From Streptomyces sp. BA2 (GTDB taxonomy: Bacteria; Actinomycetota; Actinomycetes; Streptomycetales; Streptomycetaceae): a DNA stretch of 64,000 nt. The stretch is from the NCBI RefSeq assembly GCF_009769735.1, contig NZ_WSRO01000001.1, positions 538,339-602,338 on the forward strand, given 5' to 3'. A program made the position numbers and the translations under genes. The notes beneath the pieces were generated by a model. It ran no database searches and was not told the origin of the DNA. It saw nothing but the letters and a program-made list of their open reading frames with translations. Shown here in pieces: positions 11,960 to 53,034 of the stretch. Within the stretch, counting starts at the first letter, position 1. The number at the start of each line of letters is the position of its first letter.

Positions 11960-12877
11960 GTGATCCACGAGCCCCGCCTCGCCGCGCATCTGCACGAGGT
12001 CGCCGAGCATGTGTACGCGTACGTCCAGCCGGACGGCGGCTGGTGCCTGAACAACGCCGGTCTGATCACGGCCGGCGGCCGAGCGGCACTCATCGACACC
12101 GCCGCGACCCTGGACCGCGCGCTTGCCCTCAGGGACGCGGTCGCCAAGGTCTCGCCACGGGGCCCGGGTTACGTCGTCAACACACATCCGCACGGTGACC
12201 ACACCTTCGGCAACAGTGTCTTCGCCGACGACGCGGTGATCATCGCGCACGAGGGCACCAGGGCCGAGATGGAGCTCGCCGGTCTCCATCTGACCGGCCT
12301 GTGGCCCGACGTCCGCTGGGGCGACATCACGGTGGAACTCCCGAGCCTCACCTTCCGGGAACCCCTCACGCTGCATCTGGGCGATGTCCGCGCCGAACTC
12401 ATGCATCTGGGGACCGCCCACACCACCAACGACACCGTCGTGTGGCTGCCCGAGCAGCGGGTCCTGTTCACCGGGGACGTCGTGATGTCCGGCGCCACCC
12501 CGTTCTGTCTCACCGGATCGGTCGCCGGTTCGCTCGCCGTGATCGGGAAACTGCGCGCCCTCGCGCCGGGCACCGTCGTCGCCGGGCACGGCCCGGTCGG
12601 CGGGCCCGAGCTCCTGGACGCCACCGAGAACTATCTGCGCTACGTCCAACGCCTGGCATCCGACGGCATCGCCGCGGGGCTCACTCCGCTGCAGGCGGCG
12701 CACGAGGCGGACCTGGGCGAGTTCGCGGCGCTCCTGGACAGTGAACGCCTCGTGCCCAACCTGCACCGCGCCTACGCCGAAGCGGCCGGCGCGCTGCCGG
12801 GGCACCAGCTGGACATCGGTGAACTCTTCTCCGAGATGATCACCTTCCACGGCGGGCTGCCGGTCTGCTGCGCCTGA
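11960..12877 (+). CDS. Metallo-beta-lactamase-fold polyketide cyclase, ActIV-like
   Basis: This protein has 305 residues. It carries the metal site NTHPHGDHTFGN (His76, His78, Asp80, His81), a second His in MHLGTAHTTND and the GDVV/GHGPV motifs of the metallo-hydrolase fold. The N-terminal context VYAYVQPDGGWCLNNAGLI recalls ActIV, the second-ring cyclase and thiohydrolase of actinorhodin. Next to the KS/CLF genes, a bicyclase role that closes the second ring and releases the product from the ACP is the best reading. GGAG six bases upstream supports the GTG start. A strong hairpin follows, closing the first KS operon. Confidence 0.85.
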   Translation: MIHEPRLAAHLHEVAEHVYAYVQPDGGWCLNNAGLITAGGRAALIDTAATLDRALALRDAVAKVSPRGPGYVVNTHPHGDHTFGNSVFADDAVIIAHEGTRAEMELAGLHLTGLWPDVRWGDITVELPSLTFREPLTLHLGDVRAELMHLGTAHTTNDTVVWLPEQRVLFTGDVVMSGATPFCLTGSVAGSLAVIGKLRALAPGTVVAGHGPVGGPELLDATENYLRYVQRLASDGIAAGLTPLQAAHEADLGEFAALLDSERLVPNLHRAYAEAAGALPGHQLDIGELFSEMITFHGGLPVCCA

Positions 12878-12892
12878 CACGCCACCACCTGA

Positions 12893-12920
12893 GTCCCCCG
12901 GCCCGACAGGGCCGGGGGAC
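12893..12920. terminator. Terminator between the two KS/CLF sets
   Basis: Perfect 12-bp arms GTCCCCCGGCCC and GGGCCGGGGGAC enclose a GACA tetraloop, followed by CTTTCGTGTT. It separates KS/CLF set 1 from set 2 into different transcription units. The remaining 227 bases up to 13147 should hold the promoter of set 2. Confidence 0.9.
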
Positions 12921-13147
12921 CTTTCGTGTTCGAGCGGCACCGGAACGGTCGTATCAGCCGTCCTTGCACTTCTCTGTAGTTTCTCTCACCTGCCGTGATG
13001 CCTCGTGCGAAGGCCTGAAGAAACATCACCCGGACCTGACCGGCGGTGCCTTGAAGCACATGCGCCGGGCGAACAAGCTCGTAGTCAACATCCGCCGCTC
13101 TGTCCTGAGCCGCCGTGTGAAACCCCCGACACGAGGAGAGGCCACCA

Positions 13148-38567: not shown

Positions 38568-39302
38568 TCACGCCGCGCGGGCCGGCCGCTCCACCAGCGG
38601 GTGACCCGCGAGGCCTTCGCTCTGCGCGCCCGCCGCGAGCTGCGCCCACCAAGCACTGGCCAGGTTCGAGGAGAGCAGGACCCGGCCGGGGCGGGCGCCG
38701 AGCTCGTCCATGGCGTCCAGGGTGAACATGCCGGTGCCGGTGAAGAGAACCGCGGCGTTCTCGGGGAGGCTGTATCGCCCCATCCGCTCAAGGATGGTCC
38801 CGGTGGTCACCTGGTAGGGGTCGTAGCGCTCGCCGGCGGGCACGGGCACCACCTGGTCGACGGTGAGACCGGCCTCCTCCCAGTAGCTCCGGGAGAGATC
38901 CGTCAGCCACGGCTCGTAGGGGGAGACCAGCGTCAGCCGGTTCAGGCCGAGCGCTTCGCACGCCGCGAGGATGGCCAGCGTCGAGGACACCACAGGGAAG
39001 CCCGCACGGTCGCTGAGTTCGGCACAGAACGTCCGGTCGCCCTCGGGGGACAGCAGGTAGTGCGACGCGCTGCAGGCCACCACCGCGGCATCGAGACGCA
39101 ACTGCCCGAAGCCGGCCAGGACATCGGGCAGCACTTCGTTGTACGTCTCGAGCATCTCCCGCAGGCTCGTGCCCGGCAGAACGGGGAAGCGGGACGTGTA
39201 GACATTCATTCCGGAGCCGAGGAAATGACGGAACTCAGGCTCGGCTGTGGGGTTTTCCGGGGGAACCACAAGCCCGAGCCGGGGCACGGAAGGAATATCC
39301 AT
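38568..39302 (-). CDS. Asp/Glu racemase-superfamily protein with one active-site Cys
   Basis: The 244-residue protein has the two-lobed fold of maleate isomerase, arylmalonate decarboxylase and Asp/Glu racemases. The first-site Cys is present (Cys77 in VVACSASHYLL). The second-site Cys, in arylmalonate decarboxylase the SCGGLLTLDA motif, is Gly189 in FTGTGMFTLDAM. It therefore cannot use the two-Cys racemase mechanism; single-Cys decarboxylation or isomerisation of a diacid is more likely. It lies beside the AmCP block and points away from it, divided only by the YCII-LuxR gene. Confidence 0.75.
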   Translation of the reverse strand: MDIPSVPRLGLVVPPENPTAEPEFRHFLGSGMNVYTSRFPVLPGTSLREMLETYNEVLPDVLAGFGQLRLDAAVVACSASHYLLSPEGDRTFCAELSDRAGFPVVSSTLAILAACEALGLNRLTLVSPYEPWLTDLSRSYWEEAGLTVDQVVPVPAGERYDPYQVTTGTILERMGRYSLPENAAVLFTGTGMFTLDAMDELGARPGRVLLSSNLASAWWAQLAAGAQSEGLAGHPLVERPARAA

Positions 39303-39391: not shown

Positions 39392-39907
39392 TCAGGCGGC
39401 ATTCCTGTGGCGCTGTTCCAGGGCGTGAGCCAGCTGGGCGCGGCGTCTTATCGACAACTTGAGGTAGATCCGGGTGATATGGAGTTCCACGGCACGCGTG
39501 GACACCGTGAGCGCCTCGGCGATCTTCCGGTTGGTCATGCCGTCCACCATCATCGCCGCGATGCGTTCCTCGTGCGCGGTCAATCCGGCCCCGCCGGCGG
39601 GGCGCCGGTCCGCGGCGGCGGGCCGCCGCCCCCGCAGAGCCTCTCCCGTCATCACGTTCCACTCCCGGACCTCCACATGCGCGATGACCTGGGCCCGGAC
39701 GTAGGGATCGGCACGCAGAACGCGCAGCAGGGAGTCACGGTCCCGCGCTTCGCAGAGCAGCAGTTCTCCCGAGCCGTCCTGCCACGGACCGCCGCCGATC
39801 AGCAGCCCGGCCCTGGCCTTGTCGTTCCAGTAGTCGCGATGCTCCTCCCGCCTCCCGTGGCGAGACTCCGCACCTTCCCGGAAGGTCAACTCGACAACGA
39901 AGGTCAT
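39392..39907 (-). CDS. YCII-domain/LuxR-type helix-turn-helix fusion regulator
   Basis: The 171-residue protein joins two parts. Residues 1-95 look like a YCII-related domain (WNDKARAGLLIGGGPWQDGSGELLLCEARDRDSLLRVLRADPY in outline), a dimeric alpha+beta fold usually found alone. Residues 110-170 are a LuxR/FixJ-type helix-turn-helix (LTAHEERIAAMMVDGMTNRKIAEAL, then VSTRAVELHITRIYLKL). The YCII part may sense a ligand. GAGG before the ATG at 39907 sets the start. It diverges from the AmCP operon across a 281-base gap and is the obvious candidate for its local regulator. Confidence 0.8.
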   Translation of the reverse strand: MTFVVELTFREGAESRHGRREEHRDYWNDKARAGLLIGGGPWQDGSGELLLCEARDRDSLLRVLRADPYVRAQVIAHVEVREWNVMTGEALRGRRPAAADRRPAGGAGLTAHEERIAAMMVDGMTNRKIAEALTVSTRAVELHITRIYLKLSIRRRAQLAHALEQRHRNAA

Positions 39908-40188
39908 CCTCTTTCCTCTCGCCCGGCTCGTCCCTCGCACGTGGTCACCGCGGAACCACACTAAGGGCGAAAGCCGGCTGCCGGGCGGGTGGAACGGGAG
40001 AATCAGCGGGCTCTGACATTCCATGACGTTTTCTGACGGAGCCCGAACTTGGAAGTCCTTGACGGTAGTTACCCGGCCGAAGAAGCTTGTAACCAGCGTC
40101 AACCAGATTCCCCCCAGAGGGCAGGCCAGGGGTATCCGCGACAGCTTGGGCGATATCCACGAAAGCCTCGCAGGAAAGAGTGCTCGCA
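39908..40188. promoter_or_regulatory. Divergent promoter region of the AmCP operon
   Basis: This 281-base non-coding gap lies between the YCII-LuxR gene and the DRE-TIM enzyme gene and is AT-richer than its surroundings near 40040-40100. TTGACG at 40059-40064 may be a -35 box for the AmCP operon, but no good -10 box was found at normal spacing. Confidence 0.35.
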
Positions 40189-41334
40189 ATGTCAGCAACA
40201 GAGAACCGAGGAACAATCAAGCCCCGCATATCCGATGCGACTCTGCGGGATTCCGCCCACATGGCAGGCGTGGAGTTCAGCGCCAAGGATGCCGCGGTCA
40301 TCTCCGACCTGCTGGTCAAGACGGGCGTGGACCTGGTCGAGGTCGGCATGGTGTCGGGACCCTCGTCCAAGGACGCCGACCTCATCCTGGCCACCCACGA
40401 GGCGGTCGGCCCCGAACGGAGCCTGACCCTGGTCGTGGTGAGGGACCGCCAGCAGGTCGCGGCGGCACTGGACGAGGCCCTGCGCCTGGGCGTGCGGTCC
40501 GTCATGTTCTCCATCCCCACCTCGCAGGAGCACGCCCAGCTCAAGCTGGCCTCGCCGAGCGCCAAGTACCTGACCTCGATCGCACGCGCCGCCATCGAAG
40601 GGGCCAAGGAGCGCGGATTCCACGTCACCTTCAGCGGAGAGGACGGCGCCCGCACCCCACAGGAGCGGCTTGTCCCCTACGTCGCCGCCGGCTTCGAGGC
40701 CGGAGCCGACCGCTTCCGCCTCGCCGAGACCGTCGCGTATCTCTCTCCCTGGCAGATGGAGGAGAAGATCGCGGACCTCACCGCGATCGACGGATCCGAG
40801 ATCGAGATCCACTCGCACAACATGCTGGGCATGGCCGTGGCCAACTCACTGGCCGCCGTCCGGGCCGGCGCCCAGTGGATCTCGGCGACGGTCGGCGGCA
40901 TCGGCGAGCGGGGCGGCAACGCACCCCTGGCCGAACTGCTGACCTCACTGCGCGTCATCCACGGCGACACCCGCTTCGATCTGACCCACCTCACCGAGCT
41001 GTCGAAGGTGGCGCTGGCGGGAGCGGGCCTCGGCGAGGCCTTCCAGTCCGGCCCCACCACCCCGCACGCCTTCGCCTACGAACTGCCCGGGCAGCTCACA
41101 AGCCCGCAGGCCTACGAGACCCTGCCGGCCGAGCTCGTCGGCAACTCCCGTGAGCTGCGCGTCCGTTCACGCCTGACGGCCCCCCTGGTCAAGTGGGCGC
41201 TGGCCGAAGAGGGCACCGGCATCGACATCGACGCCTTCACGTCATGGCTCACGGCGCGCCAGGAGCAGGACGGACGCCCGCTGCTCGACCAGGACGCCAT
41301 CCGCAAGGCCGCCGTCGACTACCAGTCCGCGTAA
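40189..41334 (+). CDS. DRE-TIM condensing enzyme, divergent homocitrate-synthase-like
   Basis: The 381-residue protein belongs to the HMG-lyase/isopropylmalate/homocitrate synthase family, which condenses acetyl-CoA with a 2-oxo acid. It has DATLRD at the N-terminus, the metal-binding HSH in IEIHSHNMLG and the signature GGIGERGGNAPL. Two usually constant parts differ: DGEQ after LRD is SAHM, and the Asp of HxHND is Met. A changed acceptor is therefore likely. It heads the AmCP operon, where in lysine synthesis homocitrate synthase would stand, but no aconitase or dehydrogenase follows. AGGAAAG lies ten bases before the ATG; a GTG at 40180 is possible. Confidence 0.82.
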   Translation: MSATENRGTIKPRISDATLRDSAHMAGVEFSAKDAAVISDLLVKTGVDLVEVGMVSGPSSKDADLILATHEAVGPERSLTLVVVRDRQQVAAALDEALRLGVRSVMFSIPTSQEHAQLKLASPSAKYLTSIARAAIEGAKERGFHVTFSGEDGARTPQERLVPYVAAGFEAGADRFRLAETVAYLSPWQMEEKIADLTAIDGSEIEIHSHNMLGMAVANSLAAVRAGAQWISATVGGIGERGGNAPLAELLTSLRVIHGDTRFDLTHLTELSKVALAGAGLGEAFQSGPTTPHAFAYELPGQLTSPQAYETLPAELVGNSRELRVRSRLTAPLVKWALAEEGTGIDIDAFTSWLTARQEQDGRPLLDQDAIRKAAVDYQSA

Positions 41335-41399: not shown

Positions 41400-41591
41400 A
41401 TGTCCACGCCCACGTCCACGCTCACCGGTGAATGCCCCGAGTGCGAGACCGACGTCACGACCCCGCCGATGGTCCAGGGCGAAACCATCGCCTGCCCCGA
41501 GTGCATGCTCACGCTGCGCGTCGAGGACGTCCAGGACGGCACGCTCGCCCTGCAGATGGTCGAGGTGAAGCTCCGCGACTGGGGCCAGTAG
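41400..41591 (+). CDS. lysW: LysW-like amino-group carrier protein with C-terminal Gln
   Basis: This 63-residue protein carries two CPEC zinc knuckles (Cys12/Cys15 and Cys32/Cys35) and an acidic tail ending LRDWGQ, as in LysW apart from the last residue. LysW and the known antibiotic AmCPs end in EDWGE, and the gamma-carboxylate of that last Glu forms the isopeptide bond with the amino group of the substrate. Here the last codon is CAG (Gln63). GGAGGA precedes the ATG. The ligase, kinase and reductase genes follow directly. The symbol reflects family membership; the protein must serve secondary metabolism, since a full lysine pathway is absent. Confidence 0.88.
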   Translation: MSTPTSTLTGECPECETDVTTPPMVQGETIACPECMLTLRVEDVQDGTLALQMVEVKLRDWGQ

Positions 41592-41632: not shown

Positions 41633-42484
41633 ATGGGCAACAAGATCGCCATCGTGGCGGACCGGATCAGCTGGGAAGAACGACAGCTGATCCAGACCGC
41701 CCGCGAGTACGGCCTGGACGTCGAGTGGGTCAACGACGAATCCCTGTGCCTCGGGCACCCGGACGCGCCCACGATCAACCACTACGACGCCATCCTGATC
41801 CGCAGCCGCAGCTACACCCGCGGCGGGCTGCTGGCCACCCAGGCCGAAGCATCGAACATCCGCACCCTGAACTCGGCCGCGGCCATCCAGGCCTGCGAGA
41901 ACAAGCTGACCCTGCGCACCGTGCTGCGCACGGCAGACGTGCCGGTCACGGACTTCCGCCTGGTCCTGTCCCGTACGGACTTCGAGAAGGCACTGGAGGA
42001 ACTCCCTCTGCCCATGGTGCTCAAGCCCGTCTTCGGCGGCATGGGCAAGCGCGTCGCGCTCATCCGTGACGCCGACACCGCCCAGTCCCTCTACGACTAC
42101 ATCGAGGACCTCGGGCACGGCTTCGAGCAGGCTGCCCTCGCCGAGCCGTTCCTGGACAGCGGCACCTCGATCCGCTGCTTCGTCGTCGGCCGTGAACTCG
42201 TCGCCGCCGCGGAGTTCCAGAGCGCCGGCGAGGACTGGCGCAGCAACGCCGCCCTCGGCAACCGCAACCGGGCCCTGGACCACGACCCCGCGCTCTCGAA
42301 GATCGTGGACAGCGTCGTGAACGAACTCGGCGAAGGCATCTACGGCATCGACCTCTTCCACACGGTCGAGGGCTATGTCGTCAACGAGGTCAACCACGCG
42401 CCGGCCTTCCGCACCATCGCCCAGGCGACCGGAGTGGACATCCCATCGGCCATCAGCCGCTATCTGCAGGAGATCCTCGCATGA
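41633..42484 (+). CDS. lysX: LysX-like ATP-grasp AmCP ligase
   Basis: The 283-residue ATP-grasp enzyme would ligate an amino acid through its amino group to the carrier protein. The fold is evident from CENKLTLRTVL, VLKPVFGGMGKRVALI (nucleotide loop, residues 130-144) and YVVNEVNHAPAFRT (metal and substrate loop, 248-261). Compared with aminoadipate- or glutamate-specific LysX/ArgX, the GSWGR segment is GGMGK and the MEFxNS segment is PAFRTIA, so the substrate is probably different. It follows the carrier gene by 41 bases containing two GGAG sites, and overlaps the next gene by ATGA. Confidence 0.9.
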   Translation: MGNKIAIVADRISWEERQLIQTAREYGLDVEWVNDESLCLGHPDAPTINHYDAILIRSRSYTRGGLLATQAEASNIRTLNSAAAIQACENKLTLRTVLRTADVPVTDFRLVLSRTDFEKALEELPLPMVLKPVFGGMGKRVALIRDADTAQSLYDYIEDLGHGFEQAALAEPFLDSGTSIRCFVVGRELVAAAEFQSAGEDWRSNAALGNRNRALDHDPALSKIVDSVVNELGEGIYGIDLFHTVEGYVVNEVNHAPAFRTIAQATGVDIPSAISRYLQEILA

Positions 42485-43536
42485 TCCGCGTAGGCATAGT
42501 CGGCTCCTCAGGGTTCGCCGGCGGTGAACTGATCCGGCTGGTCAGCCAGCACCCCGAGCTGGAACTGACCTTCCTCGGCGGCTCGTCGAACATCGGCCGC
42601 CGCCCCGCGGAACTGCATCCGGGCCTGCGCCTGGACCTGGGCCTGAGTGTCGAGGCCGCCACCACGGACCTCTCCGACCGGTGCGACGTGGTGTTCCTGG
42701 CCACGCCCGCCGAAGTGTCGGCCGAACTCGCCCCGGCCTTGGCCGAACAGGTCGCGTGCGTGATCGACCTGAGCGGCGCCTTCCGTATCCGCACCCCCGA
42801 GCTTCACGAGCGGTGGTACCCCAAGGTGGCGCGGCAGGCCGAACTGGCCGACCGCTTCGTCTACGGTGCGCCCGAGCTCGTCGGCGACCAGATGGCCGGC
42901 GCCTCGCTGATCTCGCTGCCCGGCTGCTACGCCACCGCCATCACGCTGGGACTCGCGCCGCTGACTCTCGCGCTCGGCCTCGACCTCAAGACCGTACTCG
43001 TCGACGGCAAGAGCGGTTCGAGCGGCAGCGGCCAGGCTCTGCGCACCCCGGGCCTGCACCCCTACCGCAACGGCGCCATCACGCCCTACGCGCCCGTCGG
43101 GCACCGGCACGCCGCCGAGGTCAGCGACTTCCTGGAGCGCAGCAAGCCGGGCACCATCGGCTCCTTGACGATGTCGGCCTACGGCGTCTCACACGTGCGA
43201 GGACTGCTCGCCAGTTCCTACGTCCTGACCGACGACGAGGTCGACGGCCGCGAGCTGCAGCGCGCCTACCTGCGCTTCTACAAGCAGCACCGGTTCGTCC
43301 GCGTCCGCAGGCACAACGAGACGATGATCCCCGTCCCGGACCCGCAGGCGGTCCTGGGGTCCAACTACTGCGACGTGACCGTGATGCACGACCCCGAAGG
43401 GGGCCGCATCGTCGTCCTTTCCGCACTGGACAACCTCCTCAAGGGCGCGGCCGGCCAAGCCGTCCAGGCGCTCAACACGCGCTACTCCCTTCCGGAAGAA
43501 ACGGGGCTGACCATGCAGCCGCTGGTGCCGGCATGA
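42481..43536 (+). CDS. lysY: LysY/ArgC-like acyl-phosphate reductase
   Basis: The 351-residue NADPH-dependent reductase converts a carrier-bound acyl phosphate to the semialdehyde. It opens with the Rossmann motif VGIVGSSGFAGGEL, has the catalytic Cys149 in SLPGCYATA, and a His in the HRHAAEV segment. These match ArgC and LysY, acting on N-acetylglutamyl phosphate or LysW-aminoadipyl phosphate. Start and stop overlap the neighbours by ATGA. It follows the kinase reaction of the next gene product, so both act on a side-chain carboxylate of the carried amino acid. Confidence 0.93.
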   Translation: MIRVGIVGSSGFAGGELIRLVSQHPELELTFLGGSSNIGRRPAELHPGLRLDLGLSVEAATTDLSDRCDVVFLATPAEVSAELAPALAEQVACVIDLSGAFRIRTPELHERWYPKVARQAELADRFVYGAPELVGDQMAGASLISLPGCYATAITLGLAPLTLALGLDLKTVLVDGKSGSSGSGQALRTPGLHPYRNGAITPYAPVGHRHAAEVSDFLERSKPGTIGSLTMSAYGVSHVRGLLASSYVLTDDEVDGRELQRAYLRFYKQHRFVRVRRHNETMIPVPDPQAVLGSNYCDVTVMHDPEGGRIVVLSALDNLLKGAAGQAVQALNTRYSLPEETGLTMQPLVPA

Positions 43537-44321
43537 GCAACATCCCCACAGTGGTCAAGCTCGGCGGAAGCTGCCTGGACGACATGTCGCAGGCCTGGTG
43601 GGACGACCTGGCCCAGCACGGCCGCAGCCACCCCCTGGTCCTGGTCCACGGCTGGTCCAAGCCGCTCAAGCAGCTGAGCTCCCGCTACAGCGAGCCCTCG
43701 GCCATCCTGCGCGACCGCTACGGAAACCAGAGCCGGTGGACCACTCCCGAGGTGATCGCCGACATCAAGACGGTCAGCGAGACCATGGCCGAGCAGGTCT
43801 TCGTACGGCTGGAGAAGCGGGGCATCACCGCCGAGCGCCTCCTGGGCAGCGACGGCCTTGTCCAGGCGGGCGAGGGCGAACGCTGGTGGTGGCGCGACAA
43901 GCAGCTCGTCGAACTCGACAACCTGGTCGGCCCCATCACCGACGTGGACCCCACCGCGCTGAAGAACCTGCAGGCCGGCCACTGCTACCTCGTCACACCC
44001 CTGGCCCGCAACAGCGCCGGCCAAGAGGTCAACACCGACGCCGACCGGGCCGCCGCCGCCATCGCGGGAGCCACCCGGGCCACGTCCCTGACCCTGGTCA
44101 CCGACGTCGCCCATCTCCTCATCGACGGGGAGCCGGTCCGCCGGATCACCGCCCGGGCCGCGGCCGATTTCCGCGACCGCGGCGCCACCGGCGGCATGCG
44201 CAAGAAGCTGCGTGCCGCAGGAGAGGCCCTGGACCGGGGCGTCGACCGGGTCATCATCGGCAGCGCCCCCGTCTCGGAACTGCTCGCTGAAACCACCGGA
44301 ACCGTCATCACCAGAACGTGA
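43533..44321 (+). CDS. lysZ: LysZ/ArgB-like amino-acid kinase
   Basis: The 262-residue kinase of the N-acetylglutamate kinase family has the phosphate-binding VVKLGGS at residues 7-13, LVLVHG and the Lys in GGMRKKLRAAGEAL. It would phosphorylate the distal carboxylate of the AmCP-bound amino acid, feeding the reductase encoded upstream. An insertion with the Trp-rich stretch EGERWWWRDKQL lies near residue 110, as in the LysZ branch, which contacts the carrier protein. The ATGA overlap couples it to the reductase gene; the gap to the amidotransferase gene is 69 bases. Confidence 0.92.
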   Translation: MSNIPTVVKLGGSCLDDMSQAWWDDLAQHGRSHPLVLVHGWSKPLKQLSSRYSEPSAILRDRYGNQSRWTTPEVIADIKTVSETMAEQVFVRLEKRGITAERLLGSDGLVQAGEGERWWWRDKQLVELDNLVGPITDVDPTALKNLQAGHCYLVTPLARNSAGQEVNTDADRAAAAIAGATRATSLTLVTDVAHLLIDGEPVRRITARAAADFRDRGATGGMRKKLRAAGEALDRGVDRVIIGSAPVSELLAETTGTVITRT

Positions 44322-44390: not shown

Positions 44391-44954
44391 GTGGCGACAT
44401 CCCGGGTTCTCGTGGTCAACAACGGGACTCTTTCCCTCAAGCAGCTGCGCAAGCGCTTCGAACAACTGGGCTCCGAGACCGACACGATCGACGCCGCCTC
44501 GGCGCCCGGCAGGCTCGACCCGAAGTACCAGGCCATCGTGTTGAGCGGCACCAAGGTGCGGGCCTTCGACAGCGACTACTACCGGCCCCTCATCGATCTC
44601 GTGATGGGAGCCAAGGTCCCGGTCTTCGGCATCTGCGGCGGCATGCAGATTCTCGCTGTCGCCAACGGCGGCCAACTGGCCGAGGGCCCGCAGCGCGTGG
44701 GCGGCTACGACGTACAGGTCGACAAGGAGGAGCCCATTTTCTCCTACGTCAAGCCGACCGTGACGGTCTTTCACCGCCACACCCTGTACCTGCAGGGCAC
44801 ACCGGAGGGCTTCCGCTCCATCGGACGCTCCGAGCACGCGCCCGTGGAGTTCCTCCGCTCGGACGACGGCCGCATCTTCGGCGCCCAGGCCCACCTCGAG
44901 TTCCGCAACGACGGCATGGAGATCCTGCGCGGCTTCGCCGAGATCTATCAGTGA
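44391..44954 (+). CDS. Stand-alone class I glutamine amidotransferase
   Basis: The 187-residue protein is a class I amidotransferase domain on its own. The triad is complete: Cys82 in FGICGGMQIL, His168 and Glu170 in GAQAHLEF. It would hydrolyse glutamine to glutamate and ammonia. No synthetase domain is fused, so the ammonia must go to a separate partner; the dehydrogenase or the acyl-CoA ligase downstream are candidates. Because the carrier protein of this operon ends in Gln, direct deamidation of that Gln to the usual acceptor Glu is a bold but testable alternative. It starts at GTG 44391 after AGGAG. Confidence 0.88.
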   Translation: MATSRVLVVNNGTLSLKQLRKRFEQLGSETDTIDAASAPGRLDPKYQAIVLSGTKVRAFDSDYYRPLIDLVMGAKVPVFGICGGMQILAVANGGQLAEGPQRVGGYDVQVDKEEPIFSYVKPTVTVFHRHTLYLQGTPEGFRSIGRSEHAPVEFLRSDDGRIFGAQAHLEFRNDGMEILRGFAEIYQ

Positions 44955-45027: not shown

Positions 45028-46164
45028 GTGAGCACTCAGAATGAAAACCCTCAGGTGGAAGAGGCCCAAGACCCCGCTTTCACCGTGTCGTTGAACGGCA
45101 GCGGCGGCGCCCTCAAGGGCTGGGTCGTCGTCGACTCGCTGCACGACGGCCTCGCCATGGGCGGCACCCGGATGACCACCGGAGTCACCGAGGAGGAGGT
45201 GGCCGGTCTCGCCCGCGACATGACGCACAAGTTCACGCTCGCCGGACTCCCCATCGGCGGCGCCAAGGCCGGCATCGTCTCCGACGGCAGCAACCGCGAG
45301 GAGACCTTCCGCACCTTCGGCCGTACCGTCAAGCCGCTCCTGCACGGCGGCATCCACCTCGGCATCGACATGGGCGTCACCCCCGCCGACCGTGCCGTCT
45401 TCTTCGACGAGGCCGGCTACGACCCCCGCTACCGCCTGGGCGCCCCGGACATGCCCATCGACTGGCGCACCTACTACGAGCCGCTGATCGACTGCACCGG
45501 TCATGGCGTCGGAGTCGCGGCGCTCACCGCACTGGAGGCCAGTGGCCGCACCGAGTCGGCGCGGGTCGTCATCCAGGGCTTCGGCGCGGTGGGCCGCGCC
45601 GTCGCCCGGTTCCTCGAGGACCGCGGGCACGTCATCGTGGGTGTCGCCGACATCGGCGGCACGCTCAGCGCGGACCGCCTGCCGGTGGCCGACCTGATCG
45701 CCATCACCGACGAGTTCGGACGGATCGACCGCTCCCGCCTCCCGCACGACGTGAGCGTCTCGACGCAGCCGGACGCCTGGCTCGACGTCGACGCCGACCT
45801 GTTGATCCTCGCGGCGCAGAAGTACGCGCTCAACGCGGAGAACGCACACCGCCTGCGCGCGGGTCTGGTCGTCGAGGGCGGAAACCTCGCCTCCAGCGTC
45901 GAGGCCAAGGAGAAGACGCGGGCCTCCGGCGCCACCCTGGTCCCCGGCGTGATCGCCAACATCGGCGGGGCCGCGTCCGCCGCCCTGGCGGTCACCCGCG
46001 TCGTCCCCTTCGACCTGCCGGCACCGGCACGCAAGGAATGGGTCTTCGACTGGGTCGGCGACCGCGTGCGGCAGAACACCTTCGACCTCCTGGAGATCGC
46101 CGCGGCCGACGCCGGCGACCCGCTGCCGCAGCTGCTCACCGCACGCCGGAAGGACCGCCGATGA
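45028..46164 (+). CDS. Glu/Leu/Phe/Val-type amino-acid dehydrogenase
   Basis: The 378-residue enzyme is of the Glu/Leu/Phe/Val dehydrogenase family, normally interconverting an amino acid with its 2-oxo acid and ammonia. GGAKAGI contains the catalytic-region Lys, HLGIDMGVTP the Asp and VVIQGFGAVGRAVARFL the dinucleotide fold. PGVIANIGGAASAALAV near the C-terminus is also typical. It stands between the amidotransferase and the acyl-CoA ligase (ATGA overlap with the latter). Reductive amination of the 2-oxo acid made by the DRE-TIM enzyme route is a natural role, giving the amino acid to be loaded; use of amidotransferase-derived ammonia is conceivable. Confidence 0.9.
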   Translation: MSTQNENPQVEEAQDPAFTVSLNGSGGALKGWVVVDSLHDGLAMGGTRMTTGVTEEEVAGLARDMTHKFTLAGLPIGGAKAGIVSDGSNREETFRTFGRTVKPLLHGGIHLGIDMGVTPADRAVFFDEAGYDPRYRLGAPDMPIDWRTYYEPLIDCTGHGVGVAALTALEASGRTESARVVIQGFGAVGRAVARFLEDRGHVIVGVADIGGTLSADRLPVADLIAITDEFGRIDRSRLPHDVSVSTQPDAWLDVDADLLILAAQKYALNAENAHRLRAGLVVEGGNLASSVEAKEKTRASGATLVPGVIANIGGAASAALAVTRVVPFDLPAPARKEWVFDWVGDRVRQNTFDLLEIAAADAGDPLPQLLTARRKDRR

Positions 46165-47813
46165 CCACCGCCATACACACCGCGCCGATATCGGACGCCC
46201 CCGAGGACCGTGAGGCCGAGTACCGCCGCCGCGGCTGGTGGCGGGAGGAGACCTTCCTCGACGACCTGCGCCACCAGGCCGCCAAGCGCCCGCACAAGCT
46301 GGCCGTCGCGGGCCGCCGGGTCAACCAGGGCCGCACCGACACGCTCGACTACACCGAACTCGCCCAGATGACCGAGCGTTTCGCCGGAGCCCTGCTCGAA
46401 CTGGGCGTACAGCGCGGCGACTTCGTGGCCGTGCAGCTGCCCAACCGGTGGGAGATGGCGCCCCTGCTGTTCGCCTGCATCCGCGTCGGCGCCGCCATCT
46501 GCCCGATCTCGCCGATCTGCGACGAGGAGGAACTGCGCCACCGCCTGGAACTCACCGAGGCCCGCGTGTGCGTCACCGTCCCCGAGTGGGACGGCGCCCC
46601 CCTGGCCGACATCGTCACCCGCCTGAGCACCGAAGTGACCACCCTGGAGCAGGTCGTGGTGGTCGGCGGCCGCACCCCCGCGGGCGCCCGCGACTTCCAC
46701 GAGCACTTCGTCGGAGTCAACTGGGAAGAGCGGCACGCCACCGCCCTGCAGGGCCGCGAGCTGAAGCCGGACGACCCCTTCGTCGTCCTGTTCACCTCCG
46801 GCACCACCGGCCTGTCCAAGGGTGTCCTGCACAGCCAGAACACGATCCACGCGGCCGTACGCGGCTACGTCGACACCTTCCTCCTGGACGAGACCCTGGT
46901 CGCCGCCGTGTCCACGCCGCTGGTGCACTACTCCGGCTTCGGCCAGGGCATCCTCGCCGGCGTCATGCTGGGCGGCACCATCGCCTTCCAGGACGTCCGC
47001 AAGAACGAGGTCCTCCTCGACCTCGTGGAGCGCTACGGCGCCACCCTGCTCTACGGCCCGCCGCCCACCCTCATGGACATCGCCGAGTCCCTGCGCGCCG
47101 ACAAGCGCGAAGTCAGCACCCTGCGCCACGTGGTGACCGGATCGGCGCCGGTACTGCAGCCGCTGGTCGACGAGCTCCGCGACACCCTCGGCGTGCGTAC
47201 GTACTCGCTGTGGGGCATGTCGGAGAACGGCCCCGTCACCATCACCAAGCTCGACTACGACCAGGACTGGGCGGCGCACAGCAACGGCCGCCCGATCGAT
47301 GCCATGGAGATCCGCATCGACAACTGCAAGAACCCCGACGAGCGCGCCTCCGTGGGCCGCCTGCGGGTGCGCGGTGCCTCCCTGGCCCTCACCTACCACA
47401 AGCACGACGACCTGTTCGCGGCCGAACTCACCGCCGACGGCTGGTTCGACACGGGCGATGTGGCGCGCGAGGACGGCCGCGGCGGGATCCGAGTCCTTGG
47501 CCGGGCCAAGGACGCCATCATGCGCGACGGCGTGGTCGTGCCCATGGCCGAGCTCGAGTCGACCATCGCACGCCACCCCAAGGTGTCCGAGGCCGCGCTG
47601 GTGGGCCCGACCGGCCAGGTGACCGACGAGATCCTCGCGGTGCTCGTCCACAACGGCGGCGACAAGCCCTCGCTGGAGGAGATCCGCGAACACCTGCGGT
47701 CGGCGGAGCAGCCCGAGCGCTTCTGGCCGGACCGCGTGGTGGTCGTCGACAAGCTGCCCAAGACCCTCACCGGAAAGGTCCGCAAGGCCGAACTCCGCAA
47801 GCTCTACGGCTAG
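46161..47813 (+). CDS. Acyl-CoA ligase (AMP-forming)
   Basis: The 550-residue enzyme of the ANL superfamily activates a carboxylic acid as adenylate and then usually as CoA thioester. The P-loop LFTSGTTGLSKGVLHS, the motif YSLWGMSENGPVT, GWFDTGDV and the C-terminal catalytic Lys in PKTLTGKVRKAEL are all there. The overall style recalls cyclohexanecarboxylate- or long-chain-type ligases rather than amino-acid adenylation domains. The start overlaps the dehydrogenase stop. It may activate the acid that acylates, or is joined to, the carrier-derived amino acid; the second carrier protein at 16 kb is a possible but distant acceptor. Confidence 0.93.
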   Translation: MTTAIHTAPISDAPEDREAEYRRRGWWREETFLDDLRHQAAKRPHKLAVAGRRVNQGRTDTLDYTELAQMTERFAGALLELGVQRGDFVAVQLPNRWEMAPLLFACIRVGAAICPISPICDEEELRHRLELTEARVCVTVPEWDGAPLADIVTRLSTEVTTLEQVVVVGGRTPAGARDFHEHFVGVNWEERHATALQGRELKPDDPFVVLFTSGTTGLSKGVLHSQNTIHAAVRGYVDTFLLDETLVAAVSTPLVHYSGFGQGILAGVMLGGTIAFQDVRKNEVLLDLVERYGATLLYGPPPTLMDIAESLRADKREVSTLRHVVTGSAPVLQPLVDELRDTLGVRTYSLWGMSENGPVTITKLDYDQDWAAHSNGRPIDAMEIRIDNCKNPDERASVGRLRVRGASLALTYHKHDDLFAAELTADGWFDTGDVAREDGRGGIRVLGRAKDAIMRDGVVVPMAELESTIARHPKVSEAALVGPTGQVTDEILAVLVHNGGDKPSLEEIREHLRSAEQPERFWPDRVVVVDKLPKTLTGKVRKAELRKLYG

Positions 47814-47924: not shown

Positions 47925-49247
47925 ATGCCCCAGCCCACCACCACGGTGACCATGTCGGCGACTCTCGCCGCCGACGAGGCCATCGCCCGCCGACGCCAGG
48001 CCGGAGAACAGGTGATCTCCATGGCCAGCGGCGAGATCGGGCTGCCCGTCCTTCCCGCACTGCGGGCCAAACTCGCCGAGGCCGCTGGCCGCAACGCCTA
48101 CGGCCCCGTGGCCGGCAGCCTCGCCTTGCGCACCGCCGTCGCCGGCTACTGGCAGCGGCGCGGCCTGGCCACGGACCGCGACCTGGTCGTGTGCGGTCCT
48201 GGCAGCAAACCCTTGCTCTTCGCACTGCTCCTGGCCGTCGGCGGCGACGTGGTCATCCCCACACCGAGCTGGGTCAGTTACGCCGCCCAGGCAGAACTGA
48301 TCGGCGCACGGCCCATCCCCGTCCCGATCCTGCCGGGCCAGGGCGGCGTACCCGACCCCGACCTGCTCCGCGAGGCGGTCACCGCAGCCCGCGCCGAGGG
48401 GCACGACCCGCGCTCCGTCGTGGTCACCACGCCGGACAACCCCACCGGCACCATCGCGGCACCCGACACCGTACGGCGTCTTGCCGAGGCGGCCAGGGAC
48501 CTCGACCTCACCATCATCTCCGACGAGATCTACTGCGACCTCGTCTTCGACCCGGCAGCGACCCCGGCCGTGTCCCCGGCGGTGTATGCCCCCGAGCGCA
48601 CCGTGGTGACCACCGGCCTCACCAAGAACCTGGCACTCGGCGGCTGGCGGATCGGAGTCGCCCGGCTGCCCGACAGCGACACCGGACGCGCAGTGCACAC
48701 ACGCCTGACCGGCATCGCCAGCCAGATCTGGTCCAGCCCCGCGGCACCGGTCCAGGAGGCGGCCGCCTACGCCTTCGGCGAGCCCGACGAGGTGATCGAG
48801 CACATCGCCGCGAGCCGCCGCCTGCACCGGACGGTGGCCCGCGCGATGTCCCAGCGGTTCGCCGCCGCAGGAGCCGTACTGGCACCGGTGACGGCCACCT
48901 GCTATCTGTACGCCGACTTCGAGCCGCTGCGCGACCACCTCGCCCAGGCCCACGGCGTGCACACCGGCGCCGAGCTCGCCCAACTCCTCGTCGAACGCTA
49001 CGGAGTGGGACTGCTGCCGGCGAGCGCCTTCGGCGAACCCGGCACCTCCCTGCGGGTGCGGGCCGCCACCAGCCGGCTCTACGGCGCCGACGACGAACAG
49101 CGCACCGCCGCCCTGAACGCCACCGACCCCCTCGCCCTTCCCTGGATCCGGGCATCGCTCGACCGCGTCGAGGAAGTCCTTGCCGACCTCATCGCCCCGG
49201 CCGCAGCCCAGCAGGAGAACACGCAGGAGAACGCGCTCAGCGCCTGA
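47925..49247 (+). CDS. Class I/II PLP aminotransferase
   Basis: The 440-residue fold-type I aminotransferase has the substrate and cofactor motifs TPDNPTGTIA, IISDEIYCDLVF and the Schiff-base Lys in TTGLTKNLALGGWRIG. It is related to aspartate/aromatic aminotransferases, not to the class III LysJ enzymes that aminate the carrier-bound semialdehyde in lysine synthesis. It may replace LysJ in this pathway, or work on a free keto acid. TTGGAG before the ATG at 47925 supports the start. The C-terminal tail is Gln/Asn/Glu-rich. Confidence 0.9.
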   Translation: MPQPTTTVTMSATLAADEAIARRRQAGEQVISMASGEIGLPVLPALRAKLAEAAGRNAYGPVAGSLALRTAVAGYWQRRGLATDRDLVVCGPGSKPLLFALLLAVGGDVVIPTPSWVSYAAQAELIGARPIPVPILPGQGGVPDPDLLREAVTAARAEGHDPRSVVVTTPDNPTGTIAAPDTVRRLAEAARDLDLTIISDEIYCDLVFDPAATPAVSPAVYAPERTVVTTGLTKNLALGGWRIGVARLPDSDTGRAVHTRLTGIASQIWSSPAAPVQEAAAYAFGEPDEVIEHIAASRRLHRTVARAMSQRFAAAGAVLAPVTATCYLYADFEPLRDHLAQAHGVHTGAELAQLLVERYGVGLLPASAFGEPGTSLRVRAATSRLYGADDEQRTAALNATDPLALPWIRASLDRVEEVLADLIAPAAAQQENTQENALSA

Positions 49248-49357: not shown

Positions 49358-50251
49358 ATGTCCATCCTGTTCGAGTGCGAGTACAAGGGCGAGCGGTACG
49401 CGGGCTTCGACAAGCCGGCCCCCGGCCGGACCCAGACCCTCTACCGGGTCTCCGACGGCCGGCTCCAGGCAGAGTTCCTCGCGGCCGACGGCCCCGAGGC
49501 GGTCATCGCCTCCATCACCGCTCAGGCCGAGCAGATCACCGTCACCGCCGGCGACCCCGAACTGCGCTACCTGCCGCCGCTGCTGCCCACGGCCAGCGGG
49601 AACGCGCTGCTGAGCGGCTTCATGCGCACCCACAAGTCCAAGTTCGACACCGAGCCCAGCGAGGACGAGGAGTTCGTCGCCCCGAACTGGTTCTTCAAGG
49701 GCTTCGGTTCCTGGCTGAAGATGCCCGACCAGACGCTGGTCGTCCCCGAGAAGCCGGTCGCACTGATCGAGGAGCCCGAGGTCGCCCTCGTCTACGTCAA
49801 CGACGACCAAGGCGCCCCGCACTACGTCGGCTACACCTTCGGCAATGACCTGTGCGACATCGGCCTGCACCGGGAGAACCCCGGCTGGAACCCGTACTGC
49901 AAGCTGTGCGACACCTCCATCGCCCCCTGGCTCTTCCTCGACGAGCCGCCGCAGTCGGTGACCGGCCAGGTCACCATCGAGCGCGACGGCGCCGCGGCCT
50001 GGCAGGGGAAGTTCTCCTGCGGCGGCGACTCGCTGTACTTCAAGATGCAGGACATGGCGGACCACCTGTTCACCTACCCCGCCGTCCGCCGCCCCGGAAT
50101 GGTCAACTACGTACTCCTGGGCGCTGACGAGGCCAGCTTCCACGACGGATTCCGGATCGCCGACGGCGACCGGGTGACCATCGACGTGCAGAGCCACGAC
50201 GTCGTCCTGTCGAACGTCATCCAGTACGGCGGCCGGCCCACGACGGCGTGA
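49358..50251 (+). CDS. Fumarylacetoacetate-hydrolase-like protein
   Basis: The 297-residue protein resembles the FAH superfamily in its C-terminal half: GYTFGNDLCDIGLHRENPGW has the GYTIGND signature, and RPGMVNYVLLGADEASFHDGF, then GDRVTIDV recall the last strands. FAH relatives hydrolyse, decarboxylate or isomerise 1,3-dicarbonyl-type acids with Mg2+. CKLCDTSIAP contains a CxxC pair unusual for the family. The gene ends the AmCP block, 110 bases after the aminotransferase and just before the tap promoter. Family assignment is moderate; the reaction is unknown. Confidence 0.65.
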   Translation: MSILFECEYKGERYAGFDKPAPGRTQTLYRVSDGRLQAEFLAADGPEAVIASITAQAEQITVTAGDPELRYLPPLLPTASGNALLSGFMRTHKSKFDTEPSEDEEFVAPNWFFKGFGSWLKMPDQTLVVPEKPVALIEEPEVALVYVNDDQGAPHYVGYTFGNDLCDIGLHRENPGWNPYCKLCDTSIAPWLFLDEPPQSVTGQVTIERDGAAAWQGKFSCGGDSLYFKMQDMADHLFTYPAVRRPGMVNYVLLGADEASFHDGFRIADGDRVTIDVQSHDVVLSNVIQYGGRPTTA

Positions 50252-50328: not shown

Positions 50329-52473
50329 ATGGCCACGGAAGAAGAGCTGTTCGCCTCGGTGGACGCGCTGCTGGAGGAGGAGCCGCAGCTCCCGCCTCCG
50401 GCGGAGCGCGCCCGGCTGCGTGAGGCCGCCGGGATCACGCAGACCCGTCTGGCGACGGCACTGAAGACGACGCCCCAGACGGTCAAGAACTGGGAGAACG
50501 GCAGGAGTTCGCCGAAGCCGCCCCGCCTGGAGGCGTACCAGCGGCTGCTGAAAGGCTGGGCAGCGAAGCACCCCGCGCACAGAGCTCCTGCCGCGGCATC
50601 CGCGCCATCCGCGCCGGCCGCCACGCCCCAGCCCGAGCCGGTTCCCCAGACGTTCCCAGGCCCGGCCGCACCCGAAGCGCCGAGCACGCAGAGCACGCAG
50701 AGCCCCGCCCCGGCGGCTCCCGCCGCCCCGGCAACCCCGCAGCGCAGCACCCCCCCTCGTACGACAACACGCCGGCCCGCTCGCAAACACGTGGCGCCGA
50801 ACATCGCTGCCGCCCCTTACCAGCACGGGCCGCTGGCCGTCCTGGACGGCGACGGGAACGCGTACGGCGTCGAAGGCATCGTGCTGGACTGCCCGGCGAC
50901 CACGATCCCGGAACTGGTGGAGTGGACCCTGAAGGAGTCCGGCCTCGGAGCCGCGAAACTCAACCGCCACGGCAAGGACTCCGACCCGCTGATCGTGCTC
51001 ACCGCGGCGGCCGCCGTGAAGCTCGGACTGCCGGAGCGCCTGGAGGGCCACGAGCAGCGCCGCTCGCTGCGACTGCCCGACGACCACCCGGTCGTCAAGC
51101 AGGTGACGAAGGCGAAGTGGAAGCTCACACAGCGCGGGTTCGGCCCCTGGGCCCGCATCTACCGCAAGGCGCAGGGCACCCAACGCCAGTGCGTGCAACT
51201 CGCGCTCCTGTCCTGGGACGCCCTCGACGAGCGGTCCTGGCCGGGCGTCGCGGAGATGGAACCGGCCGACGTCGCCCGCGTCCTCGGGGTGTACGCGACC
51301 CGGGTCATCACCCCCCGCGGATCGACGGCCGTCTCCGGCCTGGAACTGATGACGGCAATGCGCCCGCCGACGAAGGCCGTACGCGACCCGGAGACCGGCA
51401 ACTGGGTGTCCGGCCACAACCCCGGCTCGCTGGGGACGGAGCCGATGGACCCCGCTCCCCCGGAGGCCACCGCCGAACACCCCGTCGTCGTGAACTCCGG
51501 CTGGAGCGGCGGCTTCCTCGACGAAGAGGCGTACCAATGGGTGCGGTCGGTGGACTCGCTCAGCGACGAGGAGTGCACCCTGCCGTACGCGGTCGGCCTG
51601 GACCTCAACGCCGCCTTCCTCGCCGCCGCCGCGCGCCTCACGGTGGGCCTGTCCGCCCCGGACCACTTCCACGCACCGAAGTTCAACCCGAAGATCCCCG
51701 GCTCCTGGCTGGTCGACCTCAGCCACATCGAGCTCGACCCGCGCCTGCCCAGCCCGTTCACGCCGGACGGCACCCGGCCGGCGGGCCCGGCCTGGTACCA
51801 GACGCACACCGTCGCCTACGCCCAGGAACTCGGCCACGACGTACACCCGATCGAGGCGTACCTGCGCCGCGAGACCGGCGCGTACCTGGACCCGTGGCAC
51901 GACCGGCTCAAGGCGGCGTACGTCGACACCCTCGCCGAACTGGGCGTCACCCGGGACATGGAAGACCGGCAGTTCCTCACGGCGATGGAGCGGCACAAGC
52001 AGGTCGATCCGGCCCTGGCCGCCGTGCTCGCGGCCATCAAGGCCACGGTGAAGGGCGGCGTGGGCAAACTCCGCGAGCGCCCGCAGGGCAAGTCCTACAA
52101 GGAGGGCGAGCGGTGGCCGGCCCTTCAACGGCCCACCTGGCGCCCCGACATCCGGGCCGCCGTCATCAGCAAGGCCCGCGTCAACATGCACCGAAAGCTG
52201 CTGAACATGTCCCGGATGACGGGCCTGTTCCCACTGGCCGTACTGTCGGACTGCGTCGTCTACCCCTCCCCGGGAGACAGCCCGCTGGACTTCCTGCCGT
52301 ACGCCGCCTCCGGCAAGCCGCAGCCCGGCGGATTCCGCCTCGGAGCCACCCCGGGCCTGGCGAAGCTGGAGGGTGTCCAGTCGATGCTGTGGGCGGTCGA
52401 TCTGATGGAGAAGGGCTTCAACCCGGCACGGCACATCAAGGGCGGCGACGCCGTCCTGGACGAAGGGGAGTAG
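50329..52473 (+). CDS. tap: Telomere-associated protein Tap
   Basis: Tap binds the 3' overhang of Streptomyces telomeres and recruits the terminal protein. The 714-residue product has an XRE-like helix-turn-helix (about residues 25-62, LREAAGITQTRLATALKTTPQTVKNWENGRSSP in outline) and a Pro/Ala/Thr-rich linker (about 80-155). A long C-terminal region rich in Arg/Lys includes GLDLNAAFLAAAARL and LERPQ-like segments, as expected for Tap proteins. The assignment rests strongly on the tpg gene three bases downstream. Its presence says the replicon is linear and that this segment is, or was, near an end. Confidence 0.9.
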   Translation: MATEEELFASVDALLEEEPQLPPPAERARLREAAGITQTRLATALKTTPQTVKNWENGRSSPKPPRLEAYQRLLKGWAAKHPAHRAPAAASAPSAPAATPQPEPVPQTFPGPAAPEAPSTQSTQSPAPAAPAAPATPQRSTPPRTTTRRPARKHVAPNIAAAPYQHGPLAVLDGDGNAYGVEGIVLDCPATTIPELVEWTLKESGLGAAKLNRHGKDSDPLIVLTAAAAVKLGLPERLEGHEQRRSLRLPDDHPVVKQVTKAKWKLTQRGFGPWARIYRKAQGTQRQCVQLALLSWDALDERSWPGVAEMEPADVARVLGVYATRVITPRGSTAVSGLELMTAMRPPTKAVRDPETGNWVSGHNPGSLGTEPMDPAPPEATAEHPVVVNSGWSGGFLDEEAYQWVRSVDSLSDEECTLPYAVGLDLNAAFLAAAARLTVGLSAPDHFHAPKFNPKIPGSWLVDLSHIELDPRLPSPFTPDGTRPAGPAWYQTHTVAYAQELGHDVHPIEAYLRRETGAYLDPWHDRLKAAYVDTLAELGVTRDMEDRQFLTAMERHKQVDPALAAVLAAIKATVKGGVGKLRERPQGKSYKEGERWPALQRPTWRPDIRAAVISKARVNMHRKLLNMSRMTGLFPLAVLSDCVVYPSPGDSPLDFLPYAASGKPQPGGFRLGATPGLAKLEGVQSMLWAVDLMEKGFNPARHIKGGDAVLDEGE

Positions 52474-52476
52474 GCC

Positions 52477-53034
52477 GTGGGTGAGATCGAGGACGCGATC
52501 GAGCGCGCCGACCGGGAGTCGTTCACCCGCCAGCCACCGAAGACCCTCAAGGCCCAAATCGGCTACCTGATCCGGAAGTTGGGCAGCGCGAAGGCCGTCG
52601 CGCAGGAGATCGGAGTCACCGCCGACTCCGTCAACCGCTACCGGCGCGGCGCCCGCAAACACGCCCGCCCCGACGTCGCCGCGAAGATCGACGACGCGGT
52701 ACAGGCCCGCTGGCAACCGCAGGTACGCAAACGCCGCCGACGCCAGGCCGCCGACACAGGCGGCATCACGGTGGAGACCCGAGCGAAGTTCGGCTACACG
52801 GCACCGATCGGCACAACAGACGACGGCCGCTTCCGCCGCCTCACCGTGCACCTCCCCCCGACGTACGCACAACGCCTGTTCCACGCCCGCGAAACGGGGG
52901 CCGACGACCGGGAGATGCGCGGCATCATCGCCGAAGGACTGAAGGACGTGTACTTCCAGGACGGCGGAGTCCGCGCGATGGGGCTCTCGGACGTCGAGAT
53001 CAACGACATCGACTACATGGACCTCGACTTCTGA
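52477..53034 (+). CDS. tpg: Telomere terminal protein Tpg
   Basis: This 185-residue protein primes end-patching and becomes covalently attached to the 5' ends of linear Streptomyces replicons. The length is that of the TpgA family. It has a helix-turn-helix near residues 38-58 (AKAVAQEIGVTADSVNRYRRG) and a basic KRRRRQ nuclear-localisation-like patch near 85-90. Thr114, the residue deoxynucleotidylated in TpgA, is a Thr here too (GTTDDG at 112-117). The GTG start follows GAAGGGGAG by six bases. It is co-transcribed with tap. Confidence 0.95.
   Translation: MGEIEDAIERADRESFTRQPPKTLKAQIGYLIRKLGSAKAVAQEIGVTADSVNRYRRGARKHARPDVAAKIDDAVQARWQPQVRKRRRRQAADTGGITVETRAKFGYTAPIGTTDDGRFRRLTVHLPPTYAQRLFHARETGADDREMRGIIAEGLKDVYFQDGGVRAMGLSDVEINDIDYMDLDF

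Follow-up and report, generated by a model that had tools for sequence, protein, structure and literature searches.

Amino-group carrier proteins of the LysW/ArgW type, known from Thermus, Sulfolobus and Natrinema, are small proteins with two CPxC pairs and a DWG tail, encoded in operons with LysX-, LysY- and LysZ-type genes. Their tail reads EEDWG followed by a terminal acceptor Glu, which is regarded as the chemical group that defines such carriers, and these systems use LysK, the enzyme that cleaves the bond between carrier and product. Other Streptomyces carriers, presumably of the vazabitide/azinomycin type, also lie with LysX/Y/Z-type genes in many loci. In Natrinema, the E54A change produces an arginine auxotroph, and the GSWGR motif of LysX and ArgX is the one that recognises EDWGE (PMC10433800). 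BGC23a of Streptomyces sp. QL37 comprises genes for a 2-isopropylmalate synthase, LysW, RimK and an AMP ligase; deletion of lysW and rimK in that strain abolishes iso-maleimycin, and similar clusters are named in SM11, S. filamentosus and S. shenzhenensis (PMC12022981).

The window analysed here, a stretch of 64,000 nucleotides of Streptomyces sp. BA2 covering positions 538339-602338 of its contig, encodes a carrier (MSTPTSTLTGECPECETDVTTPPMVQGETIACPECMLTLRVEDVQDGTLALQMVEVKLRDWGQ) that is like LysW/ArgW in size, CPxC pairs, DWG tail and LysX/LysY/LysZ operon, but that ends LRDWGQ, with LRDWG for EEDWG and Gln as the last residue instead of the acceptor Glu (Table 1). The last codon, CAG (41586-41588), is followed by TAG (41589-41591). 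The four cysteines are arranged as two CPEC pairs, which are predicted zinc sites, and both these pairs and the length fall within what is expected of LysW/AmCP proteins (two CPxC pairs, about 55-65 residues), as does the operon with LysX-, LysY- and LysZ-type genes. Because its C-terminal residue is Gln and not the acceptor Glu, the protein was classed as a LysW-like variant rather than as LysW. It scored 23.2 bits against PF21344, under the curated cut-off of 27, and 40.6 bits against NF041070, under the cut-off of 75, the latter match extending to residue 63; PF21344 is annotated in the database on relatives of the carrier such as P0002. The initial annotation had reported the CAG-encoded Gln of the LRDWGQ tail, which the open reading frame bears out, and a LysW zinc-knuckle layout, with which the two CPEC pairs agree, and we judge that it was right to consider the missing acceptor Glu important. 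The amidotransferase encoded at 44391-44954, the second Gln-ended copy and the published family of iso-maleimycin clusters were absent from it.

Table 1. Features of the carrier cluster in the window
Feature	Coordinates	Strand	Basis
Arylmalonate decarboxylase/EutA family protein, candidate pathway member	38568..39302	-	present in 33/43 cluster relatives
HMGL/isopropylmalate-homocitrate synthase-like enzyme, conserved core, upstream of carrier	40189..41334	+	profiles, locus comparison
LysW-like amino-group carrier, 63 aa	41400..41591	+	ORF reading, homologue and profile searches
LysX/RimK-type ATP-grasp ligase	41633..42484	+	profiles, alignment, structure matches
LysY/ArgC-type semialdehyde-forming reductase	42481..43536	+	TIGR01850, 335.8 bits (cut-off 233.6)
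LysZ/ArgB-type amino acid kinase	43533..44321	+	best match [LysW]-aminoadipate kinase, below cut-off
Stand-alone class I glutamine amidotransferase (glutaminase fold), triad C82-H168-E170	44391..44954	+	profiles, alignment
Glu/Leu/Phe/Val dehydrogenase family protein	45028..46164	+	profiles, locus comparison
AMP-dependent acyl ligase	46161..47813	+	profiles, locus comparison
Class I/II PLP aminotransferase	47925..49247	+	profiles, locus comparison
AraD1/GguC-like protein	49358..50251	+	profile match below cut-off

The cluster genes downstream of the carrier are separated by short gaps or overlap. Judged by gene content, the cluster belongs to the iso-maleimycin type, since it contains an IPMS-like gene, lysW, rimK and an AMP ligase gene; BGC23a is alike in these same genes, the comparison being with its described gene content, and the passages on it make no mention of the last residue of its carrier (PMC12022981). 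In the records named SM11, S. filamentosus and S. shenzhenensis (L004, L027 and L010) all three carriers end LRDWGQ, which, taken with the deletion result in QL37, indicates that Gln-ended carriers sit in a working type of cluster (PMC12022981). The regulator encoded at 39392-40216, divergent from the cluster, combines a YCII domain with a LuxR-type helix-turn-helix domain in one protein. The HMGL-like enzyme has the motif LRDSAHMAG; isopropylmalate synthases read LRDGEQ and DmpG-type aldolases LRDxxH, and by this motif the enzyme could be an aldolase and not a Claisen synthase. Adjoining the cluster, at 50329-53034, are the genes of the telomere proteins Tap and Tpg, whose scores both lie well beyond the cut-offs, because of which the 602 kb contig of the window is probably a linear replicon with the carrier cluster near its end.

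A first homologue search found the tail LRDWGQ in 37 of 37 matches. When two homologue searches were pooled, in a set that draws on the best 120 of 1783 matches from the wider one, LRDWGQ was found in 121 of 123 homologues and LRDWGE in two; one of the 123 (P0056) is the second carrier copy of the BA2 genome itself, whose gene, located on another contig, likewise ends LRDWGQ. The last codon of lysW in actinomycetes, the window included, is CAG in 44 of 45 genes and GAG in one. With these counts, a sequencing error as the cause of the Gln end, the single-base error that the initial annotation had wanted to see ruled out, was rejected. A ligase-based scan of named genomes rendered 40 loci, 38 of them from actinomycetes, one from Microgenomates (L041, tail EEDWGQ) and one from Chloroflexi (L042, tail EEDWGE). 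The carrier ends in Gln in 37 of the 38 actinomycete loci, so that a one-strain oddity was also rejected, and in Glu, encoded by GAG, in that of Actinopolyspora alba (L005). A dead pseudogene copy is unlikely in view of the conserved operon and D-W-G tail. With the addition of L153 and L205-L208, which have the same gene order, the count becomes 42 Gln and one Glu among 43 loci, the window excluded; the initial annotation had envisaged that homologues in this context might all end in Glu, which is not what was found. LRDWGQ occurs at six further places (L122, L124-L128), where the tails alone were read.

Among 44 rows of actinomycete carriers the last residue is Gln in 43 and Glu in one, nearly as fixed as the preceding D, W and G. 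Since some positions elsewhere in the carrier allow Glu and Gln to interchange, the Gln end of actinomycetes looks to be under selection, as far as alignments can tell. It may also go back to one event, in which case the 42 loci are not independent; a LysW tree of 120 rows needs 11 Gln/Glu changes, of which the well-supported branches force only one. One cluster (L205, genome G1133) carries an LRDWGQ carrier gene twice, once on each strand, ca. 10 kb apart. A second, reduced operon (L153; G000:C2:277000-295000, on the large contig) comprises only genes for a DapB-like reductase, an HMGL-like enzyme, carrier, LysX, LysY, LysZ and amidotransferase; L026 has the same gene set, as does L033 except that no DapB-like ORF was found in it. 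In L037 (ca. 5911-6330) and L038 (ca. 12710-13140) an ORF that by eye we take to resemble RidA lies between lysZ and the amidotransferase gene, which points to a possible imine or enamine intermediate.

By means of profile searches we compared four groups of loci: the 43 actinomycete loci with the carrier family of the window, 24 Microgenomates-type loci, 32 other Streptomyces loci (31 places of one carrier search plus G716) and 21 Chloroflexota loci (L042 plus 20 from a carrier search). The Microgenomates set consists of DWG-tailed matches (22 of 39 places plus two more), the rest having been dropped because no DWG was present in the tails read or because the match was weak, and it includes two loci, L161 and L162, with identical LysX. 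The class I amidotransferase was found in 43/43 actinomycete, 1/24 Microgenomates-type, 0/32 Streptomyces and 0/21 Chloroflexota loci, the lone Microgenomates match (L173) being distant and away from the operon. A class II enzyme was found in 0/43, 20/24, 0/32 and 0/21 loci, respectively, LysK in 0/43, 1/24 (L155), 25/32 and 15/21, and Gln ends in 42/43, 4/24, 0/32 and 0/21. That LysK is missing from the 43 actinomycete loci, all of which have the class I amidotransferase instead, is new here and sets them apart from the LysK-using LysW/ArgW systems as well as from the other Streptomyces carriers, the tails of which are all Glu-ended (30 DWGE and 2 DFGE). In the two comparison groups pooled (Streptomyces and Chloroflexota), LysK was found in 40 of 53 loci and neither a Gln end nor either amidotransferase in any of the 53; a count over 29 Chloroflexota loci found DWGE in 31 tails and DWGQ in none. 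In whole-genome searches, a LysK-grade match was found in none of 11 genomes with an amidotransferase-type cluster (BA2 and 10 more), four of which gave weaker M20 matches (E from 2e-15 to 2e-7), and in all three control genomes, chosen for having LysK (E <= 1.6e-83).

With kinship ignored, Gln ends are associated with an amidotransferase in the absence of LysK (44 of 62 loci versus none of 36 LysK-only loci; Fisher p = 1.2e-13), also when only the Microgenomates are taken for the class II enzyme (3 of 20 loci versus 0 of 36; p = 0.04), and are more frequent in the Microgenomates than in the comparison loci (4 of 24 versus 0 of 53; p = 0.008). A strict one-to-one tie between Gln end and amidotransferase was rejected, since Glu ends are found in L005 and in 17 Microgenomates loci that have the class II enzyme but lack LysK. 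Among the loci examined and the proteins listed, most of those in the best-120 listing being known by tail alone, Gln ends were found only in the actinomycete and Microgenomates groups; that listing, the best 120 matches to a Microgenomates-type query in which three of eight rows were Gln-ended, contains 27 Gln-ended proteins.

The actinomycete enzyme matches PF00117 with 69.4 bits and has the Cys-His-Glu triad of class I amidotransferases, invariant in the 39 aligned rows (window and 38 loci), the triad motifs being present as well in L153 and L205-L208, outside the alignment. The assignment of the Microgenomates enzyme to class II is remote. In 19 of the 20 loci its gene follows lysJ, and in the remaining one, L149, it is next to lysW; the four loci without a match (L157, L158, L159 and L172) all run into contig ends. 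The N-terminus reads MCR in 15/15 members, all of which match the EgtC model TIGR03442 at E <= 1 (best 7.3e-18); since the L041 protein, with 33.6 bits, misses the cut-off of 218.65, the enzyme was considered a relative and not a member of EgtC. GATase_4 was matched by 13/15 at E <= 10 (best 4.4e-12), the L041 protein being unmatched even at 10, and three members, of which one is truncated by the region edge, matched no Pfam family at 1e-3. Structure matches were 3mdn (4.9e-6) and the EgtC structures 4zfj-4zfl (0.0013 to 0.0033). EgtC is an Ntn class II amidohydrolase that removes a glutamyl residue (PMC9103826). The Microgenomates carriers, encoded in apparent amino acid operons, end in Glu in 20 of the 24 loci, and we infer that the Gln rows stem largely from metagenome assemblies. 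In a LysX tree of 26 rows, the four Gln rows fall in four places, needing four changes, with uneven branch support; L149 groups with Chloroflexota rows.

We propose, at what we would put as an even chance, that a glutaminase-fold enzyme has replaced LysK, priming the carrier by conversion of Gln to Glu and later freeing the product. The class I amidotransferase would attack the gamma-amide of the last residue of the carrier: on a new carrier it would deamidate Gln63 to Glu63, making the acceptor gamma-carboxylate, to which LysX would ligate the amine of the substrate; LysZ and LysY would work on the tethered substrate, and the amidotransferase would then hydrolyse the gamma-glutamyl amide, so that the product would be freed and a Glu-ended carrier returned. 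We infer every chemical step of this cycle from sequence and gene sets. The initial annotation had left three options, namely prior deamidation, use of the alpha-carboxylate and new chemistry; the first is favoured, because a glutaminase-fold enzyme is present in 43/43 operons and LysK in none, and the other two are less so. The reading stems from the fact that, bar L155, LysK was not found in two lineages that have in the operon a fold able to attack gamma-amides, and it is supported by the EgtC-like enzyme occupying the place of LysK beside Gln-ended Microgenomates carriers, by the four changes needed on the LysX tree, by the lack of a LysK-grade match across the 11 genomes with the cluster, and by the QL37 deletion result together with the Gln ends of L004, L010 and L027. 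The occurrence of both Glu- and Gln-ended carriers with each amidase fits an amidase that both primes and unloads. On the other hand, actinomycete Gln is more strongly conserved than mere tolerance of Gln would predict, most Microgenomates carriers are Glu-ended, L155 has a LysK-like M20 protein in addition to its class II enzyme, and 7/32 Streptomyces and 6/21 Chloroflexota loci, all Glu-ended, show neither LysK nor an amidotransferase in the stretch read; the remote class II assignment and the possible single origin of the actinomycete Gln also count against it.

More tentatively, and with less than even confidence, Gln-ended carriers may be considered pro-carriers, with two unrelated glutaminase folds having each replaced LysK, one in actinomycetes and one in Microgenomates-type loci, to arm and unload the carrier. 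One idea is that strict Gln retention in actinomycetes might block loading by other ligases until the proper enzyme acts. EgtC (class II) and the gamma-glutamyl peptidase/PuuD-type hydrolases (class I) are likewise glutaminase folds that cut gamma-glutamyl amides; those known act, to our knowledge, on small molecules, whereas the substrate proposed here is a protein C-terminus. A large clade lacking the Glu within a working type of cluster, together with the Microgenomates set, calls for a priming step. If the proposal is true, a release enzyme would be named for lineages where LysK was not found, and a protein C-terminus would be the substrate of an amidotransferase-fold hydrolase. A literature search gave, among the matches listed, no Gln-ended carrier, no amidotransferase acting on LysW and no priming step; two of the papers listed contain the letters DWGQ and are, by their titles, unrelated. 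The scope of this search did not extend to the original AmCP publications (Hasebe 2016; Matsuda 2017 and 2018).

It could also be the case that the amidotransferase simply supplies ammonia for an imide or amide of the product and is unrelated to the carrier, the Gln being left to a housekeeping deamidase or as a spectator. Among solved structures, the class I enzyme comes nearest by sequence to GMP synthases and to the glutaminase subunits of these, which supply ammonia; gamma-glutamyl peptidase 1 ranks lower. This favours such a role and counts against replacement of LysK by a glutaminase. Iso-maleimycin is a maleimide-type compound. The product type, for which iso-maleimycin is named (PMC12022981), is thus an imide, which needs nitrogen, and this points in the same direction. 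However, the amidotransferase is retained in five operons lacking the AMP ligase, a possible ammonia user (L026, L033, L037, L038 and L153), which supports the glutaminase reading, and the Microgenomates parallel uses an EgtC-like enzyme in amino acid-like operons, so that we regard the ammonia-donor role as rather unlikely. The nucleophile chemistry of class I amidotransferases runs via a thioester, and the Gln could in principle be the activated form for a direct exchange, in which a gamma-acyl thioester of the amidotransferase with the carrier Gln would be passed to the substrate amine in an ATP-free, transglutaminase-like manner. This is very improbable, considering that an ATP-grasp ligase is present in 43/43 loci, although, 38 having been found via the ligase, only L153 and L205-L208 are informative in this respect, and that the Glu-ended L005 carries the same gene set.

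Attachment of the substrate at the alpha-carboxylate of the terminal Gln, in RimK style and with the Gln side chain used for recognition only, is unlikely, and less likely than deamidation and release by a glutaminase fold. In its favour, the terminal Gln is strongly conserved, and the ligase of the window scores 174.4 against TIGR00768 (RimK family alpha-L-glutamate ligase), above the cut-off of 143.4, and 173.2 against TIGR02144 (LysX_arch), under the cut-off of 275.6. Release would, however, call for a peptidase, and the operons hold a glutaminase fold (43/43); moreover, the best solved matches of the ligase, 3vpd, 3vpb, 1uc8/1uc9 and 5k2m, of which 3vpd and 1uc8 are presumably LysX, precede the RimK structures. 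The structures 3vpb and 5k2m correspond to ArgX and LysX, respectively (PMC10433800). The loop of the window ligase reads KPVFGGMGKR versus KPxxGSWGR in LysX/ArgX, and the Glu-ended L005 retains the GGMGKR loop of its Gln-ended relatives, just as GSWGR is retained in LysX of the four Gln-type Microgenomates operons, where it serves Gln-ended carriers. With LysX showing no visible co-variation, the carrier end presented to the ligase would seem to be identical in Gln- and Glu-types, which supports the replacement of LysK by a glutaminase-fold enzyme. A search for a Gln-versus-Glu signature in Microgenomates LysX (4 Gln versus 19 Glu rows) found a single column without a shared residue, in which the Gln rows vary among three residues, and no clear signature; between L005, a single Glu-ended genome, and the Gln-type rows, 15 positions of LysX and 17 of the amidotransferase are different.

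Two further variations were observed among Streptomyces and Chloroflexota carriers. Two Streptomyces carriers beside LysK (L199 and L204) end EEDFGE, Phe replacing the otherwise constant Trp, and in the Chloroflexota genomes G1405, G1439, G1471, G1487, G1559 and G1591 two or three lysW genes lie within a few hundred bases.
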